Shown here: positions 27,383-38,711 of the stretch, in pieces
Layout: each line of letters begins with the position of its first letter
How positions within the stretch are numbered: position 1 is the first letter of the stretch
Source of the DNA: Natrialba magadii ATCC 43099
GTDB taxonomy: Archaea > Halobacteriota > Halobacteria > Halobacteriales > Natrialbaceae
Length of the DNA stretch: 64,000 nt
Direction: 5' to 3'
Assembly: GCF_000025625.1 (NCBI RefSeq)
Contig: NC_013922.1
Location: forward strand, 3,162,001-3,226,000
Program-made: the position numbers and the translations under genes
Notes under the pieces: model-generated
What the model was told of the DNA's origin: nothing
Seen by the model: only the letters and a program-made list of their open reading frames with translations
The model's database searches: none

Positions 27383-28495
27383 ATGTCGACTGTAGATGAC
27401 GTCGTTACACGGGGAAGGAGTCTGTCAACGGAGCAGATCCTGCTAATTGCCGTTGGCATCGGTGTCGTACTTCTGGTGGGAGATCTCGTCCTCGGCGTCC
27501 TTGACGGCTCGTACAGTATCTCGCGTATCGGCAGGTACGTGATGGAAGGAATCCTCTACGGATTGATTATGGGGCTTGCTGGCATCGGGCTCTCGATGAC
27601 CTACAGCATCCTCAACTTCGCCAACTTCGCCCACGGAGATACCATCACCGCGGGCGCGTTCATCGGCTGGGGTGGCACGTATCTCATCGCGGGCTGGGGT
27701 GCGGCGAGTATTGGTCACCTGGCGCTGGTCGGACCACAACGTGGTCTCGGTGGCCCGCAACTGGGCATCTCGGTCACGTCGACGCCGATCGCAATATTCG
27801 GCGGACTACTCCTTGCCGGGGTCGGTACCGCACTGTTCGTGGTGCTGATCGATCGCCTGGCGTACAAGCCGATGCGCGGTGCCGGTGGTATCCCGCTGTT
27901 AATCACCAGTATCGGTGTCGCGTTCGCGCTCCGATACATCATCATGTTCGTCTACTCGAGTCAGTCCCGGGGAACGACGGCGAGTGTGCCCTCGGCCGAC
28001 CTGTTACTTGTCGACGGCTACGTGTCGCTGGACGCCCACGACGGGACGTTGATCGGAGCGGCCGTGGTGTTGATGCTCGGAGTCCACCTGATGCTCCAGC
28101 GGACGAAGCTGGGGAAGGCGATGCGGGCGATGTCCGACAACAAGGATCTGGCGCTCGTGACGGGGATTCCAACCGAGCGCGTGATCCGCTGGACCTGGAT
28201 GATCGGCGGTGGACTCGCTGGCAGTGCGGGATACCTGATGGTGCTGTGGACGGGGACGATCGACTGGCAGTTCGGCTGGCTGCTCCTGTTGTTAATCTTC
28301 GCTGCGGTGATCCTCGGCGGGATTGGCTCGATCTACGGTGCGATCGTCGGTGGGCTCGTCATCGGTGTCAGTATGCACATGTCGATGATCTGGCTCCCCG
28401 GCGGTGACTTTACGACCATCACGGCGTTCCTGATGATGATCCTGGTTCTGTTGATCAAACCATCCGGGCTCTTTGGAGGGAAGACGACAGCATGA
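27383..28495 (+). CDS. livH: Branched-chain amino acid type ABC permease (LivH)
   Basis: A 370-residue membrane permease with 8-9 helices. It contains the LivH signature YGLIMGLAGIGLSMTYSILNFANFAHGD, in which the FANFAHG motif starts the conserved transmembrane domain. The C-terminal half has GKAMRAMSDNKDLALVTGIP, the cytoplasmic EAA-like loop that contacts the ATPases. It is the first gene of a livH-livM-livG-livF operon in which consecutive genes overlap. The substrate class (branched-chain amino acids, amides or urea) cannot be set from the permease alone. The length is slightly above the usual 290-320 because of an N-terminal extra helix and a longer loop near residues 95-140. Confidence 0.93.
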   Translation: MSTVDDVVTRGRSLSTEQILLIAVGIGVVLLVGDLVLGVLDGSYSISRIGRYVMEGILYGLIMGLAGIGLSMTYSILNFANFAHGDTITAGAFIGWGGTYLIAGWGAASIGHLALVGPQRGLGGPQLGISVTSTPIAIFGGLLLAGVGTALFVVLIDRLAYKPMRGAGGIPLLITSIGVAFALRYIIMFVYSSQSRGTTASVPSADLLLVDGYVSLDAHDGTLIGAAVVLMLGVHLMLQRTKLGKAMRAMSDNKDLALVTGIPTERVIRWTWMIGGGLAGSAGYLMVLWTGTIDWQFGWLLLLLIFAAVILGGIGSIYGAIVGGLVIGVSMHMSMIWLPGGDFTTITAFLMMILVLLIKPSGLFGGKTTA

Positions 28496-30006
28496 GTTCG
28501 ACAGCACACGCAGACAGACGCACACAACTGGAATCGCTGTGGGAACACGACGCGATCAAGATCATCGCCGTCATCGGTGCGATCTACATCGTCTACGCCC
28601 TGATCGGGTTGATCCTCGGCTACTCGCTCGACGGTATCATCAACACCCTCCGGCGGATGACGTATCTGATCGCGGTCTACGGGATGGTCACGCTCGCGTT
28701 GAACCTTCACTGGGGATACACCGGTCTGTTCAACATCGGCGTTGCCGGCTTCATGGCGATCGGCCTGTACGTCACCATGATGCTGGCGAAACCAGTCGAT
28801 CCAGGTGGGGCAGCCCAGTACTCCGGTCTCGGGCTGCCGATGCCGATCGCAATCATCGGTGGCGTCGTTGCGGCCGGACTGGCCGGCCTCGTCGTCGCAC
28901 TGCCCGCGTTGCGGTTGCGAGCCGACTACTTCGCGATTACGACGATCGCGTTTGCAGAAATCGTTCGTCTCGGGGTCACGTCGGACGCGCTGCAACAGTT
29001 CACGATCCTCGGTGCGGAACTCGGTACTGGCGGGGGTCGTGGGCTCATCCGAAACTACGACGACCCGATGAACGTCATCTTCCAGCTCGAGATCTTTTCC
29101 TCGTTCGTCAACCTGACGAACAGCCTGTTCGGCTTCGGGCCGACGCAGGCACGGGCGCTCGCATACTCCATCGTGCTCGTGATCGTGCTTGCCGGCATCT
29201 ACTGGCTCATCCAGCGCACGAGCCGGTCGCCGTTTGGCCGTGTGCTCAAGGCGATCCGTGAGGACGAGGAAGCGGCCCAATCGCTCGGAAAGAATACGAA
29301 CATGTTCAAAATCAAGGTGTTCGTGCTCGGCTGTGCGCTGATGGGGCTCGCCGGCATCCTCTGGCGGTTCCGCCGAACTGGCGTGACGCCCGAGGCGTTC
29401 CGCCCGCACGTCACCTTCTACATCTGGATCGCGCTGATCATCGGTGGTGCAGGCTCGAACACCGGGAGCATCCTCGGCTCGGGCCTGTTCGTGGCTGTCC
29501 TCTTCGAGGGTCCACAGTACCTCCGCCGGGTGATCGACCAGCTGGTTGCGGTCGGTGATGCGCCGAATACGTTTGCAGGTGCTGTTGGCCCGCTCCTCTC
29601 TGCAAATCCGGTTCCGCTGGTCCGGTACACCTTCGCCGAGTTCCTGACGCTACAGTTCGTCATCATGGGGGTCGCGCTGATTCTCCTGATGCAACGTCGG
29701 CCAGACGGGTTACTTGGCCATCGTGAGGAAACAGCGGCCGCCATCCCGCTTGGGGCACGCCCGAGCGCGGCTGGCGGCGGGAGCGGTGGCGGTGGCGGTG
29801 GCGGTGGCGGCGGTGGCAACGGCTCCGATAGCGGATTCGCCCACAGCCAAACCCGCGACCAGCACGACGACTCCGACCAGCAGACTGACGGCGGTATCGA
29901 CGCTGACGGGGCCCGGACGCAGGCCGGCACCAGCGAGAGTAGTAATGAAAGCAGTGGCAGCACCGATCAAACCGATGACTCAGTCACCGACGGTGAGACA
30001 CAATGA
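28492..30006 (+). CDS. livM: Branched-chain amino acid type ABC permease (LivM) with Gly-rich tail
   Basis: The second permease of the importer, overlapping livH by 4 bases. About residues 1-415 are the LivM membrane domain: VTLALNLHWGYTGLFNIGVAGFMAIG (family signature), ALRLRADYFAITTIAFAEIVRL and the GRVLKAIREDEEAAQSLGKN cytoplasmic loop. The final 85 residues are not part of the family: a run of glycines at about 427-442, then a Ser/Asp/Thr/Gln-rich acidic tail (TSESSNESSGSTDQTDD). This tail is probably disordered and cytoplasmic, placed next to the ATPase interface. It overlaps livG by 4 bases. Confidence 0.92.
   Translation: MSSTAHADRRTQLESLWEHDAIKIIAVIGAIYIVYALIGLILGYSLDGIINTLRRMTYLIAVYGMVTLALNLHWGYTGLFNIGVAGFMAIGLYVTMMLAKPVDPGGAAQYSGLGLPMPIAIIGGVVAAGLAGLVVALPALRLRADYFAITTIAFAEIVRLGVTSDALQQFTILGAELGTGGGRGLIRNYDDPMNVIFQLEIFSSFVNLTNSLFGFGPTQARALAYSIVLVIVLAGIYWLIQRTSRSPFGRVLKAIREDEEAAQSLGKNTNMFKIKVFVLGCALMGLAGILWRFRRTGVTPEAFRPHVTFYIWIALIIGGAGSNTGSILGSGLFVAVLFEGPQYLRRVIDQLVAVGDAPNTFAGAVGPLLSANPVPLVRYTFAEFLTLQFVIMGVALILLMQRRPDGLLGHREETAAAIPLGARPSAAGGGSGGGGGGGGGGGNGSDSGFAHSQTRDQHDDSDQQTDGGIDADGARTQAGTSESSNESSGSTDQTDDSVTDGETQ
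29779..29818 (+). repeat. (ggtggc)n repeat encoding poly-glycine in livM
   Basis: A run of ggtggc units encodes Gly repeats at the junction of the LivM membrane domain and its hydrophilic tail. The frame is preserved through it. Confidence 0.8.
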
Positions 30007-30896
30007 GTGATAGCTCGACCGACGTCCAGTCAACCGAACCGGGCACAGCAGCCGACACGGCGGAGACGTCGTCCGATGCACCAATCGACGCGGACGCCAT
30101 TGCACCGTCTGCAGTCGACCGTACCGGCGAAATCGAACTCGCCGTCGACGGTCTCGTCAAACGCTTCGGCGGCATCACGGCCGTCGACGGGGCGTCCTTC
30201 GAGGTCGAATCCGGGTCAATCACCGGGCTTATCGGCCCCAACGGCGCCGGTAAGTCGACGACGTTCCACTGTATCACCGGCATCCACCAGCCGGACGAGG
30301 GCTCCGTCGCGTTCCAGGGACAGGACATCACCGGCATCGCACCCTACGAGTGTGCCGACTACGGCCTCGTCCGTACCTTCCAGATCGCTCGCGAGATGGC
30401 CAACATGACCGTCCTCGAGAACCTCATGCTCCCGGCGAGACAGCAACAGGGCGAAGCCCTCTGGCGCTCCGTCATGCCACTCGCCAGACGCGAGGTCGAA
30501 GAACAGGAACGCGAACTCCTCGAGCGCGTCTGGGACACACTCGAGTTCTTCGAAATCGAGCACATTGCAGAGGAAAAGGCGGGTAACCTCTCGGGTGGCC
30601 AGCGAAAGCTCCTCGAGATGGCGCGGGCGCTGATGACCGAACCGGAGATGTTGTTACTCGATGAACCGTTCGCGGGGGTCAACCCGACGCTCGAACGGAA
30701 GCTACTCGAGCACATCCACGAGTTGCGAGCGGAGGGGTACACGTTCTTGATCGTCGAACACGACATGGATCTGATCATGGAACACTGCGAGCACGTGATC
30801 GTCATGCACCAGGGATCGGTGCTGGCAGAGGGCGCGCCCGGACAGGTGACCTCGAACGAGCAGGTGATCGAAGCCTACCTCGGAGGTGAGGTCTGA
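30003..30896 (+). CDS. livG: Branched-chain amino acid type ABC ATPase (LivG)
   Basis: 297 residues. After an acidic N-terminal extension of about 38 residues comes the ABC domain: Walker A GPNGAGKST near residue 79, GLVRTFQIAREM (Q-loop), the signature NLSGGQRKLLEMARAL and Walker B MLLLDEPFAGVNP. The longer region between Q-loop and signature and the C-terminal ending (VTSNEQVIEAYLGGEV) are the LivG hallmarks. It drives the LivH/LivM pore. The start overlaps livM by 4 bases; the last base of its stop is the first base of livF. Confidence 0.93.
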   Translation: MSDSSTDVQSTEPGTAADTAETSSDAPIDADAIAPSAVDRTGEIELAVDGLVKRFGGITAVDGASFEVESGSITGLIGPNGAGKSTTFHCITGIHQPDEGSVAFQGQDITGIAPYECADYGLVRTFQIAREMANMTVLENLMLPARQQQGEALWRSVMPLARREVEEQERELLERVWDTLEFFEIEHIAEEKAGNLSGGQRKLLEMARALMTEPEMLLLDEPFAGVNPTLERKLLEHIHELRAEGYTFLIVEHDMDLIMEHCEHVIVMHQGSVLAEGAPGQVTSNEQVIEAYLGGEV

Positions 30897-31600
30897 TGGC
30901 GATGCTCGACGTAGCGGGACTCGATGCGGGCTACGGTGATTTGCAGATCCTGAGCGACGTGGATCTCGAGGTCGAAGCAGACGAGTACGTCGTTATCGTC
31001 GGCCCGAACGGGGCCGGCAAGTCGACGGCGATGAAATCCGTCTTCGGATTGACGACGTTCATGGGTGGTGCCGTGGAGTTCAACGGTGAGGACATCACAG
31101 GTCGCTCGCCGGACGAGATCATCCACAAGGGAATTGGCTACGTCCCCCAGACGGAGAACGTCTTCCCGTCGTTGACGGTCCAGGAGAACCTCGAGATGGG
31201 CGCGTACATCCTCGACGAGGTGCCCGAGGAGGCGCTGCAGGACGTCTTCGATCAGTTCCCAATTTTGCGCGAGCGTCGCGACCAGAAGGCGGGATCGATG
31301 AGCGGCGGCCAACAGCAGATGGTCGCGATGGGACGGGCGCTGATGCTCGATCCGGATCTGCTGTTGCTCGACGAGCCAAGCGCGGGGCTGGCACCCGATC
31401 TGGTCGACGAGATGTTCGACCACGTCGACGCGATTAACGAGGCCGGAACGGCGGTGCTCGTCGTCGAACAGAACGCGAAGGAAGCGCTCCGTCGCTGTGA
31501 TCGAGGCTACGTGCTTGTCCAGGGACAGAACCGGTACGTCGACGACGGCGACGCGCTGTTACACGACGAGGAAGTCCGCCAGCAGTTCCTGGGCGGCTGA
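30896..31600 (+). CDS. livF: Branched-chain amino acid type ABC ATPase (LivF)
   Basis: 234 residues, the usual LivF length. Motifs: GPNGAGKST at about 38-46, GYVPQTENVFPSLTVQENLEMGAY, signature SMSGGQQQMVAMGRALM, LLLLDEPSAGLAPDL and VVEQNAKEAL, where LivF has its usual Gln in the H-loop region. It is the last gene of the livHMGF operon. A GC-rich ggaccc repeat (31605-31627) follows the stop and may act with later T-rich bases as a terminator. The binding-protein gene lies opposite, converging on it. Confidence 0.94.
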   Translation: MAMLDVAGLDAGYGDLQILSDVDLEVEADEYVVIVGPNGAGKSTAMKSVFGLTTFMGGAVEFNGEDITGRSPDEIIHKGIGYVPQTENVFPSLTVQENLEMGAYILDEVPEEALQDVFDQFPILRERRDQKAGSMSGGQQQMVAMGRALMLDPDLLLLDEPSAGLAPDLVDEMFDHVDAINEAGTAVLVVEQNAKEALRRCDRGYVLVQGQNRYVDDGDALLHDEEVRQQFLGG

Positions 31601-31767: not shown

Positions 31768-33045
31768 CTACTCAGCGAGCGCGGACTCGAGTTCGCCGGT
31801 GTAGGAACCCTGCTCGGCTTCGAACGAGACCGTGTTGAGTTCCTCGCCGCCCTGATCGTCGGCGAACGAGTCGATGAATTGCTCTGAGAGCTGCTGTCCG
31901 TAGTCGTTGTTGACGTACAGCGTCGCAGCGGTCTCGCCATCGAGTCGATCAGCGGCCACTTCGGCCATGACCTGTCCCTGCAGGAGGTCACTCGGTGCAG
32001 TTCGGAAGAAGTAGCCGTCGTCTTCGACGTTCGATAGCGAGAGTGCCGTACTCGCAGGTGAGCATTGGACGACGTTCGCACCGCTGGTCTCGCCGACGAG
32101 CGGGACGGAGTTCCCGGACGATGCGGCACCGATGATGGCCGGGTAGCCAGCGTCGATGAGCGCCCCGCCGTTCGAGAGTGTTGTGTCTTCGTCAGTTTCG
32201 GTGTCTTCGATCGCGAGGTCGATTTCGAAGCTCGTCCCCTCGAACTGGTCGGCTGCGAGTTCGCCGGCCTGAATCATCGGGCTTCCGAGCTCACCCAGGT
32301 CCCCCGTTTCGGGGAGCAACATCGCGACCATGACCTCGCGATCCGTGCCGCCCGGCGAGTCGTCTGCCATCTCGCCATCTGGGTCGTCGCCCTCGAAGGC
32401 GATTGTGTCGATCGTCTCGGTCCCATCATCTCCGAACTCCCAGACGTCGTAGCCTGCGTCCGCGGGATCGCCGACGTCGTCGAAGTTGACGCCACTCGAG
32501 GCGCCCTGGTAGGAGATTTCATCGCCATCAGCAGCGGCCTCGGCGGCTTCTTGCAGTTCGCCGGGTCCGTACTCGTCCCCGCCGGGATTTGCGACGCGGC
32601 GCATCTGGTCACGGACCGCTTCTCCGTCGTTGTCGCCGGCGGCAATGTTCGCGAGGATGCAGACCGCGACCGCGTCGAACGTGTGAGAGTTGAAAACGCC
32701 TGGTGAGGAGTCGAACTCGTCTTCGTACAGGTCCTCGAAGGCGGCCTCGTTTGGCCCCTCTGAGGCAGGTGCGGTTCCGAGGACGTTGTCCATGTCGTTG
32801 CCGACCTCTCCCGGCAGATCGTCGTCCTGGAGCCCGTCTGGAACGATAATATCTGTTCCATCGTCGAAGTTCGAGTAGTAATCGCGGAAGATCTGTATCC
32901 CGCTTTCGGGATAGCCGATGATGTTCAGGACATCTGGTCCTCCCTCGGTAACCTCCTCTTCGTCTCCGATACAGCCTGCAAGACCTGCAATTCCTGCTGC
33001 ACCGACACCACTGAGCACCCGTCTTCGGTTGAGTTCCCAAACCAT
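31768..33045 (-). CDS. livK: LivK-type binding lipoprotein, apparently circularly permuted
   Basis: 425 residues. Residues 1-25 are a Tat-style lipoprotein signal (RRR at 7-9, lipobox LAGC, Cys25) with an acidic spacer. Residues about 37-225 match what is normally the second half of a type I periplasmic-binding fold: DVLNIIGYPESG, GVFNSHTFDAVAV, IAAG, RRVANPGG, YQGASSGVNF and DVWEFG. A Gly/Asp/Pro linker follows. Residues about 238-425 match the usual first half: VAMLLPETGDLGELG, GAASSGNSVPLV, FFRTAPSD and LYVNNDYG, ending YTGELESALAE at the stop. In ordinary relatives ALAE runs directly into PDVL. The order is therefore swapped. It converges on livF and probably feeds LivHMGF. The start at 33045 has a TATA box about 24 bases upstream. 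Confidence 0.88.
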   Translation of the reverse strand: MVWELNRRRVLSGVGAAGIAGLAGCIGDEEEVTEGGPDVLNIIGYPESGIQIFRDYYSNFDDGTDIIVPDGLQDDDLPGEVGNDMDNVLGTAPASEGPNEAAFEDLYEDEFDSSPGVFNSHTFDAVAVCILANIAAGDNDGEAVRDQMRRVANPGGDEYGPGELQEAAEAAADGDEISYQGASSGVNFDDVGDPADAGYDVWEFGDDGTETIDTIAFEGDDPDGEMADDSPGGTDREVMVAMLLPETGDLGELGSPMIQAGELAADQFEGTSFEIDLAIEDTETDEDTTLSNGGALIDAGYPAIIGAASSGNSVPLVGETSGANVVQCSPASTALSLSNVEDDGYFFRTAPSDLLQGQVMAEVAADRLDGETAATLYVNNDYGQQLSEQFIDSFADDQGGEELNTVSFEAEQGSYTGELESALAE

Positions 33046-33317: not shown

Positions 33318-34691
33318 TTACAGGTTTTCGTCGAGCCACCCGGCGAAGTCACCGGTGAGGAAGTCGACGTACTCGACGACCCCCAGGTACAGCGAGATGA
33401 TCAACACGATGACGATCGGGATCCGGAGCGCCCAGATCCAGACCTGGCCGAGCGTTCCGAGGTTGCCGATCCCCTTCTCGAGTTCATCGACGGCAGCCTG
33501 CGGAGCGATCCAGCCGACGAGGATCGTCAGCATGAGCGCACCGAAGACGAGCAGGATTGCGTCGGCGAAGTAGTCGAGCAGGTCGAGGAAGATCAGGTCG
33601 TAGGTGACCGGAACGCCGAGGAGGTAGATGACACCACCCATTCCGATCGCAGCCTTCCAGCGCTCGATACCGATCTCGTCGATCGCGTAGGACGTGACAA
33701 CCTCGAGCAACGAGATTGCACTCGAGATGGCCGCGATTGCGACCGTCGCGAAGAAGATCAGGCCGAGGAACTGCCCGCCCGAAACGTCCGCGAACGCCTG
33801 GGTCATTGCGACGAAGATTTCGCCGGGACCACCGGAACCGGGTTCAGTGAGTGCGCCGGCCCACATGATCGGGAAGACGACGAGGCCGGTGAGGAACGCG
33901 ATCCCGGTGTCGAAGCCGATGATGGTGATGCCGTCCCTGGTGAGGTTTCGGTCTTCACCGAGGTAGGAGGCGTAGGTAATCATCACACCCATTCCGAGCG
34001 AGAGTGTGAAGAACGCCTGTCCGGCGGCGGCCGGCAGGAGTTCGGCCCAGTTCGCAGCGATGACGCTGAAGTCCGGCGAGAGGTAGTACTCGTACCCGCC
34101 ACCGGATTCGGGCAGCGTGAACGCCCAGATGGCAAGACCAACTAGCAGGAGTATAATCGCGGGGACCATCACCTTCACGGCGAGTTCGATACCCTGGCGG
34201 ATGCCAAGGGCGACGATGCCGACCGTGATCGCCATGAAGACGGTGTGCAGGATGAAGGCGTCGAGTCCGGTCGACAGCGCACCGAACATAATCTCCGGAT
34301 CGCCCTCGTACGCTGCGATGTGGCTGGCGTAGTCGCCGCGGAAGCCTTCAATTGCGTAGCGGATGAACCAGCCGCCGATGACGCTGTAGTACGAGAGGAT
34401 GATGAATCCAGTTGCGATGAAGATACCGCCGACGTACTTCCAGGCGCCGCCACCGTACGCTTTGAGCGCACCGACCGGGTTCCGGTCAGTCCGCCGGCCG
34501 ACGACGAATTCGGCCAGGATTGCTGGGAACCCGATCAGTGCGACGAACAACAGGTACACCAGCAAGAATGCTGCACCGCCACCTTCGCCGGTGACGAACG
34601 GGAATCGCCAGATATTACCAAGGCCAACTGCGCTGCCGACAGCAGCAAGGATAAACCCTGTTCTCGTTGCCCATGTCTCACGTTGTGCCAT
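33318..34691 (-). CDS. Sodium:neurotransmitter symporter (NSS/SNF) family transporter
   Basis: A 457-residue membrane protein with 11-12 helices. The start shows the LeuT-fold signature (residues 8-33: TRTGFILAAVGSAVGLGNIW, RFPF), with the unwound helix 1 that binds Na+ and the amino acid. Further segments are AILAEFVVGRRTDRN, YSVIGGWFIRYAIEG, FFTLSLGMGVMITYASYL (helix 6) and ISSAISLLEVVTSYAIDE (helix 8). It probably imports an amino acid or osmolyte with Na+. The substrate is not evident. ATG 34691 has a TATA-like gttatatataag about 27 bases upstream, implying leaderless expression. It is divergent from pccB. Confidence 0.92.
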   Translation of the reverse strand: MAQRETWATRTGFILAAVGSAVGLGNIWRFPFVTGEGGGAAFLLVYLLFVALIGFPAILAEFVVGRRTDRNPVGALKAYGGGAWKYVGGIFIATGFIILSYYSVIGGWFIRYAIEGFRGDYASHIAAYEGDPEIMFGALSTGLDAFILHTVFMAITVGIVALGIRQGIELAVKVMVPAIILLLVGLAIWAFTLPESGGGYEYYLSPDFSVIAANWAELLPAAAGQAFFTLSLGMGVMITYASYLGEDRNLTRDGITIIGFDTGIAFLTGLVVFPIMWAGALTEPGSGGPGEIFVAMTQAFADVSGGQFLGLIFFATVAIAAISSAISLLEVVTSYAIDEIGIERWKAAIGMGGVIYLLGVPVTYDLIFLDLLDYFADAILLVFGALMLTILVGWIAPQAAVDELEKGIGNLGTLGQVWIWALRIPIVIVLIISLYLGVVEYVDFLTGDFAGWLDENL

Positions 34692-34724: not shown

Positions 34725-34842
34725 TTTCCGTGAGTATCATTACCTGTCAATATGTCGTCTATTAATCGTGATGGAGTTACGGAATCCTTTTCCTATTGGT
34801 CCGCACACAACGGCGTATGAATCTGAGCGGGGTGTTTCCTGC

Positions 34843-36766
<1,924 letters not shown>

Positions 36767-36875
36767 ATCCAGCTGCCCGCGACACACATCTTCACACGCG
36801 TTTCGGCGACGGCGAACTGATTCTCGCCTCGTTGCGAAAAAGTAAGGTAGTGCCCCCGCAACCGTTCCCACAGGA

Positions 36876-38711
36876 ATGTTCAGGAAGGTTCTCGTGGCGA
36901 ACCGCGGCGAGATCGCGGTCCGCGTGATGCGGGCGTGCGAGGAGTTGAACGTTGGGACTGTCGCAATCTACTCTGAGGCTGACAAGGGCTCGGGACACGT
37001 TCGGTACGCCGACGAGGCGTACAACGTCGGTCCCGCTCGCGCGGCGGATTCGTATCTCGATCACGAGGCCGTTATCGAGGCCGCACAGAAAGCCGACGCT
37101 GACGCGATCCACCCCGGCTACGGCTTCCTCGCGGAGAACGCGGAGTTCGCGAGCAAGGTCGAGGCAGCCGATGGAATCACCTGGATCGGCCCGTCCAGCG
37201 ACGCCATGGAATCGCTCGGCGAGAAGACGAAGGCCCGCCAGATCATGGACGAAGCAGCGGTGCCGATCGTCCCCGGAACGACGGACCCGGTCACCGACCC
37301 CGACGAGGTCGCTGCCTTCGGCGACGAACACGGCTACCCGATCGCCATCAAGGCCGAAGGTGGTGGCGGTGGCCGCGGCATGAAGGTCGTCTGGGACCAA
37401 AGCGAGATCGAAGACCAGTTAGAGAGTGCAAAGCGCGAGGGTGAGGCGTACTTCGACAACGACTCTGTCTATCTGGAGCGCTACCTCGAACAGCCCCGCC
37501 ACATCGAAATCCAGATTCTCGCGGATGGACACGGCAACGTCCGCCATCTCGGTGAGCGCGACTGTTCACTCCAGCGCCGCCACCAGAAGGTCATCGAGGA
37601 AGGCCCATCCGCAGCCCTCTCCGAGGAACTGCGCGAAAAGATCGGCGAGGCCGCCCGCCGCGGGGTCGCCGCCGCGGACTACACCAACGCCGGCACCGTC
37701 GAGTTCCTCGTCGAGGAAGAGCCCGGACGCGGCCCCGAGGAACCCCTCGGTCCCGACGCGAACTTCTACTTCCTCGAGGTCAACACCCGGATCCAGGTCG
37801 AGCACACGGTCACCGAGGAAATCACGGGCATCGACATCGTCAAGCGCCAGATTCAGATCGCAGCGGGCGAGGAAGTCGATTTCACACAGGAAGAGGTGGA
37901 CATCGACGGCCACGCGATGGAGTTCCGAATTAACGCCGAGAACGCGGCCGAGGACTTCGCCCCCGCGACCGGCGGCACACTCGAGACGTACGATCCGCCA
38001 GGTGGGGTCGGCGTCCGGATGGATGACGCGCTCCGACAGGGCGACGAACTCGTCACAGACTACGACTCGATGATCGCGAAGCTGATCGTCTGGGGCGAGG
38101 ACCGCGAGGAGTGTATCGACCGCTCGCTGCGCGCCCTGAGTGAGTACGAAATCGCGGGCATCCCGACGATTATCCCGTTCCATCGCCTGATGCTCACCGA
38201 CGAGGAGTTCGTCGCGAGTACGCACACGACGAAGTATCTCGACAACGAACTCGACGAGAGTCGGATCGAGGAAGCCCAGGAGCAGTGGGGCGGCGACACC
38301 GGCAGCGGTGCCAGCGACGACGAGGAGACCGTCGAACGCGAGTTCACCGTCGAAGTCAACGGCAAGCGCTTCGAGGTCGAACTCGCAGAGCACGGCGCGC
38401 CGGCAATTCCGGTCGGTGACGTCGACGCAAGCGGCGCGTCCGGCCCGCCACAGCCCGCGGGCGGCGACAGCAGCGGTGACGACGATATCGCTGGCGACGG
38501 CGAGACCGTCGACGCTGAAATGCAGGGAACGATTCTGGACGTCGCCGTCGAAGAGGGTGACGAGGTCGCAGCGGGCGACGTGCTGGTCGTCCTCGAGGCG
38601 ATGAAGATGGAGAACGATATCGTGGCCTCCCGCGGCGGCACCGTCACCGAAATTGCCGTCGAGGAAGAACAGAGCGTTGACATGGGCGATACGCTGGTCG
38701 TTTTGGAGTAA
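36876..38711 (+). CDS. pccA: Acyl-CoA carboxylase biotin carboxylase/BCCP subunit
   Basis: 611 residues. The biotin carboxylase domain (1-450) has [18 protein letters not shown], the glycine-rich ATP lid [24 protein letters not shown] and [15 protein letters not shown]. Then come a short linker rich in Gly, Ser and Asp and the biotin-carrier domain at about 540-611, with EAMKMEN carrying the biotinylated Lys577. The linker domain [14 protein letters not shown] lies between. It acts with PccB and PccX; biotin must be attached by a ligase not in this window. The ATG at 36876 gives the exact family start. Confidence 0.95.

Follow-up and report, generated by a model that had tools for sequence, protein, structure and literature searches.

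Natrialba magadii ATCC 43099 possesses a gene for a LivK-type substrate-binding lipoprotein in which the two halves of the type I binding fold are confirmed to be in swapped order. The gene was found in the window, the 64,000-nucleotide stretch of DNA that was analysed, next to genes for a LivHMGF transporter. It very probably encodes a functional binding protein that serves this transporter, has its membrane tether on lobe 2, and arose at its present locus more than once, probably through a tandem duplication that was followed by fusion and trimming. Among haloarchaea the permutation most likely happened three or four times.

Order of the Two Halves

The frame runs on the minus strand from an ATG at 33045 to a stop codon at 31768-31770, and its parts are given in Table 1. 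A sequence-only reading, which gave no strand, had described an intact Tat lipoprotein signal, and both the RRR motif and the LAGC lipobox (Cys25) are present. R7, R8, G24 and C25 are conserved in a 53-row alignment of permuted proteins. AlphaFold2 gives pLDDT below 50 over residues 1-33, which take in the signal and most of the stalk. The C-half then starts at PDVLNIIGYP and closes with the native C-terminal strand, whose last residues are TIAF.

Proteins of the HAAT/LivK family (PF13458) are expected to have an N-half followed by a C-half in one collinear order. This order was not found here. The PF13458 profile matches both halves of the fold, in two stretches (E 6e-24), and positions 2-187 of Pfam Peripla_BP_6 match residues 238-423. 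With the structure of T. maritima LivK (3td9), residues 16-200 of the chain correspond to 237-422 of the query and residues 204-328 to 36-157. The N-part of 3td9 thus matches the end of the query and the C-part its start, so the order is reversed. A normal-order paralogue from the same genome also aligns as two pieces in opposite order. Both segments are homologous, complete and reversed, with no loss at the cut, as in a natural circular permutation.

These alignments bear out the swapped halves of the earlier reading, which had named an alignment with ordinary LivK, giving two segments in reversed order, as the check; the paralogue and 3td9 both give this. The half boundaries that it drew were right within a few positions. 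It had also favored a natural permutation over an assembly artefact and had suggested looking for the same order in relatives. The permuted form occurs across many haloarchaeal genera, in scores of independent assemblies, and these exclude an artefact.

Table 1. Features of the permuted livK gene and the adjoining transporter genes in the window.
Feature	Coordinates	Strand	Basis
LivH-type permease	27383..28495	+	NCBIfam best match LivH
LivM-type permease	28492..30006	+	NCBIfam best match LivM
LivG-type ATPase	30003..30896	+	NCBIfam best match LivG
LivF-type ATPase	30896..31600	+	NCBIfam best match LivF
Circularly permuted LivK/HAAT-type substrate-binding lipoprotein, 425 aa	31768..33045	-	Pfam, 3td9, paralogue, relatives
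Tat-type signal (RRR) and lipobox LAGC, Cys25; residues 1-25	32971..33045	-	Sequence
Short acidic stalk, lipid anchor to first domain; residues 26-36	32938..32970	-	Sequence, pLDDT
C-half of type I fold, now first; residues 37-218	32392..32937	-	
Linker, old C-terminus to old mature N-terminus; residues 219-236	32338..32391	-	
N-half of fold, now last; residues 237-425; EVMVAMLLPETG to ...SYTGELESALAE	31771..32337	-	

The Cut Site

Normal orthologues read ...SYTSxLxSAL-xxx-PDxLxVIGYPxSG... across the site of the cut. The window protein begins after the stalk at PDVLNIIGYP and finishes at SYTGELESALAE, so the cut lies where it had been placed earlier, between ALAE and PDVL, and the comparison with normal orthologues supports that position. 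The cut had been thought to fall between secondary-structure elements, and in the AlphaFold2 model a helix lies on one side of it and a strand on the other. This helix-strand loop belongs to lobe 2. All permuted clades are cut within a few residues of one another, after the SYTSxLxxAL helix and before the PDVLxVxGYP strand. No other cut site was found in about 150 loci with a query that favors the present cut, so that others may be missed. Since the query itself carries this cut, the search shows recurrence at one site and not exclusiveness.

The livHMGF Locus

The 3' ends of livF and the permuted livK face each other, and this layout is conserved in relatives. In nearly all loci the permuted gene is convergent, tail to tail, with livF-livG-livM-livH. 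Normal-order orthologues occupy the identical place in Natronomonas, Halogranum, Halobium, and many others. Within the window's own family, permuted (L023-L032) and normal (L138, L139, L147, L149, and L151) loci have the same biotin-dependent carboxylase neighbors. With both orders at the same locus, the permuted and the normal form are orthologues, and the change or replacement took place within the locus.

Other features of the region were also observed. Genes for an acyl-CoA carboxylase beta subunit and a biotin carboxylase/carrier (34768-38711, plus strand) flank the livK-livFGMH module, and in Natrialbaceae this flank accompanies permuted and normal livK alike. A gene for a sodium-dependent (NSS/SLC6-like) transporter (33318-34691, minus strand) adjoins livK in Natrialba; relatives have it elsewhere or lack it. 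The C-terminal tail of LivM (29700-30006, plus strand) contains a long glycine run (GGGSGGGGGGGGGGGNGS). Haladaptatus has two permuted livK genes in tandem (L034: 7980-9380 and 9489-10805), and the same pairs are present in a genus with another family code (g50, f17). These pairs indicate that livK duplicates at this locus.

Fold and Binding Site

The permuted protein was modelled by AlphaFold2 with 53 relatives, which gave a confident two-lobed fold (pTM 0.81, mean pLDDT 83). A normal orthologue (L079) was modelled with pTM 0.78. The strands and helices of the two models correspond one for one, in rotated order. In Foldseek, which keeps chain order, the normal model matches 3td9 over 379 columns (TM 0.88) and the permuted model over about 190 columns (TM 0.44). 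A match of half the length is expected of a permutation when alignment keeps chain order. The fold and the ligand cleft have probably been kept.

The positions that hold the amino acid (Ser/Thr, Tyr, Asp/Glu) were taken from LivJ and placed by alignment, and are presumably the same here. Among 53 permuted proteins the likely ligand positions Y45, D70, S310, T333, and Y382 do not vary, nor do their counterparts in 13 normal proteins. From these residues it appears that the permuted protein would still bind an amino acid for LivHMGF. The membrane tether would now be on lobe 2 and no longer on lobe 1.

Distribution and Selection

A sample of 392 haloarchaeal genomes of the order, from 95 genera, was searched with the permuted protein at a threshold of E<=1e-75. 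Matches were found in 161 of the genomes and 36 of the genera. Among the matches listed, nearly all cover both halves of the query in a single alignment. Normal-order genes match it in two pieces, at best with about 1e-61. When the frames of the first loci were classed by the order of their halves, 73 were permuted and 31 normal. The scan of contigs placed permuted relatives in Natrialba, Natronorubrum, Haloterrigena, Halopiger, Halorussus, Haladaptatus, Halorubrum, Haloferax, Halobellus, and others. All of the bacterial relatives retrieved have the normal order.

The permuted gene is under strong purifying selection. Between Natrialba species, dN/dS is 0.035-0.085 over its whole length, with the linker also under constraint. 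One Natrialba genome (G001; L010, about 1286-2319) has a permuted livK disrupted by frame breaks and a TGA. Two permuted relatives (L030: 8001-9293 and L031: 7944-9326) keep the twin-arginine signal and have lost the lipobox Cys; these two proteins may therefore be secreted free.

Separate Permuted Clades

Natural circular permutations are usually regarded as old, single events. The permuted proteins fall into clades I (the window and most of the named genera), II, and III, and IV, one deep sequence that alone represents its clade in the tree. The tree of de-permuted proteins has four order changes, and one permuted clade was recovered in 0 of 200 bootstrap trees. A single permuted clade was rejected by the AU test on the binding-protein tree (p=0.004), as were the pairs I+III (p=0.008), II+III (p=0.013) and, only marginally, I+II (p=0.042); the groups tested were named after the first tree had been seen, so these p-values are somewhat optimistic. 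The deep forks of this tree are poorly resolved. Clade III forms a clade at 100/99.8 with four normal-order relatives (L125, L139, L141, and L147), and shares GFPQSG and GVLMPETGDLG with them. Trees of the N-half and of the C-half each keep I, II, and III apart, so chimeras do not explain the separation. The first half-trees had a single permuted clade because they were confined to the best 80 loci; that picture was overturned once permuted clades with weaker matches and further normal-order relatives had been added.

The neighboring livHMGF genes, which are not permuted, were also used. Their tree places III beside its normal-order relatives, joins IV to II, and rejects a single permuted clade (p=7e-9). 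Unless several reversions took place, the trees call for at least two permutation events, and the simplest count is three gains (I, II+IV, and III).

The linkers begin at the stop position of normal proteins and end at the start of the normal mature domain. They are alike in length across the permuted clades. Linker scores between clades I, II, and III are about 19-26, against 18-23 for shuffled sequences, and within a clade they are 80-109. Compared in this way, the linkers of these three clades are unrelated. Those of clades II and IV are Gly/Ser-rich and resemble lipoprotein stalks. In clade I the linker is conserved, with G224, G232, and R236 invariant in 53 proteins, and was modelled by AlphaFold2 with pLDDT near 87-92. 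It is unexpectedly conserved and predicted to be ordered, and so may have a role beyond joining the halves.

Origin of the Permuted Gene

Tandem duplication would be the simplest route to the permuted gene. An ordinary livK that stood at this locus would have been duplicated in tandem, and the C-terminus of the first copy fused in frame to the mature N-terminus of the second. The first N-half and the last C-half would then have been lost. The original signal and stalk would now lead directly into the C-half, and the membrane tether would thereby enter lobe 2, not lobe 1. No duplicated, fused or half-trimmed intermediates and no leftover fragments were found beside about 150 loci, so this route is unsupported by intermediates. 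The same lack speaks for a fission of livK into two genes, which were then re-fused in the other order. Separate half genes were not found either. Tandem livK copies do exist at the locus, in Haladaptatus and another genus, and the linkers of clades II and IV look as if they were left over from the Gly/Ser-rich lipoprotein stalk of a second copy; fission and refusion are therefore considered unlikely. A still smaller probability is given to a single ancient permutation, with the normal order regained several times in scattered lineages. It would account for a cut that is identical within a few residues in all clades and for linkers of like length, and the weak deep forks leave room for it. However, the similarity between the linkers of I, II, and III does not exceed that of shuffled sequence, clade III is nested among normal-order relatives that have no linker, and the bacterial outgroups have normal order. 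On the neighbor tree, one origin without regain also costs more changes than three gains. Reversion to normal order may be part of the history.

Other explanations concern the gene itself. The permuted protein could stand outside transport, as a relic or in another role such as a sensor; the broken gene in one Natrialba genome and the two relatives without a lipobox Cys are in line with this. Yet dN/dS is below 0.1, the likely ligand positions are invariant, and the linkage to livHMGF has lasted across many genera, which makes such a role very improbable. An artefact of assembly or annotation in this genome can be set aside almost entirely, as the same order is present in dozens of independent assemblies from many genera, under purifying selection. 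Why the permutation recurred can be answered only tentatively. Permutation could have been selected repeatedly because a shift of the anchor from lobe 1 to lobe 2 alters how the protein is presented to the ABC transporter, with Gly/Asp-rich lipoprotein stalks as ready-made linkers by which the change comes easily. This suggestion is held to be doubtful.

Significance and Comparison With Known Systems

Permuted and normal orthologues share a locus in related archaea, so that the origin, tolerance, and benefit of the permutation are directly testable by gene swaps. The permuted genes indicate that evolution can re-wire such a binding protein without breaking it. They also offer naturally proven permutation sites for biosensors that are built on binding proteins. 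A warning is needed for annotation, as profiles label the permuted genes as ordinary substrate-binding proteins. In the open literature, of which coverage was incomplete, no report was found of a natural permuted LivK or other permuted substrate-binding protein (haloarchaea, ABC transporters), nor of the repeated in-place permutation of one transporter gene. The open literature also held nothing relevant on proteome evidence in Natrialba.

The closest known system is the HAAT-type LivJ/LivK (PF13458; 3td9). Both halves of the permuted protein are homologous to it, and the lipoprotein export signal, the linked livHMGF, and invariant motifs of the amino-acid pocket are shared. Unlike LivJ/LivK, the permuted protein has swapped halves with new termini in lobe 2, a new linker of 18-20 residues, and the lipid tether on the C-half.

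An ancient domain dislocation has been proposed as the step by which type II periplasmic binding proteins arose from type I (Fukami-Kobayashi 1999, as cited in PMC9815098). It is likewise a topological rearrangement within the same superfamily. However, it was an ancient swap between folds, whereas in the permuted livK the fold is unchanged, as far as the models indicate; identity is about 50%, and normal orthologues are present at the same locus. Circularly permuted halves of ribose-binding protein have been engineered (PMC9815098). These also have a permuted type I binding protein fold, but they are man-made single lobes, and the permuted livK is natural, full-length, and widespread. Natural circular permutation, and a route to it by duplication, are known for DNA methyltransferases and saposin/swaposin (PMC3320104). 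The livK permutation is similarly natural and probably arose by duplication. It differs from these in that one gene, at one conserved locus, has been permuted repeatedly at one cut site.
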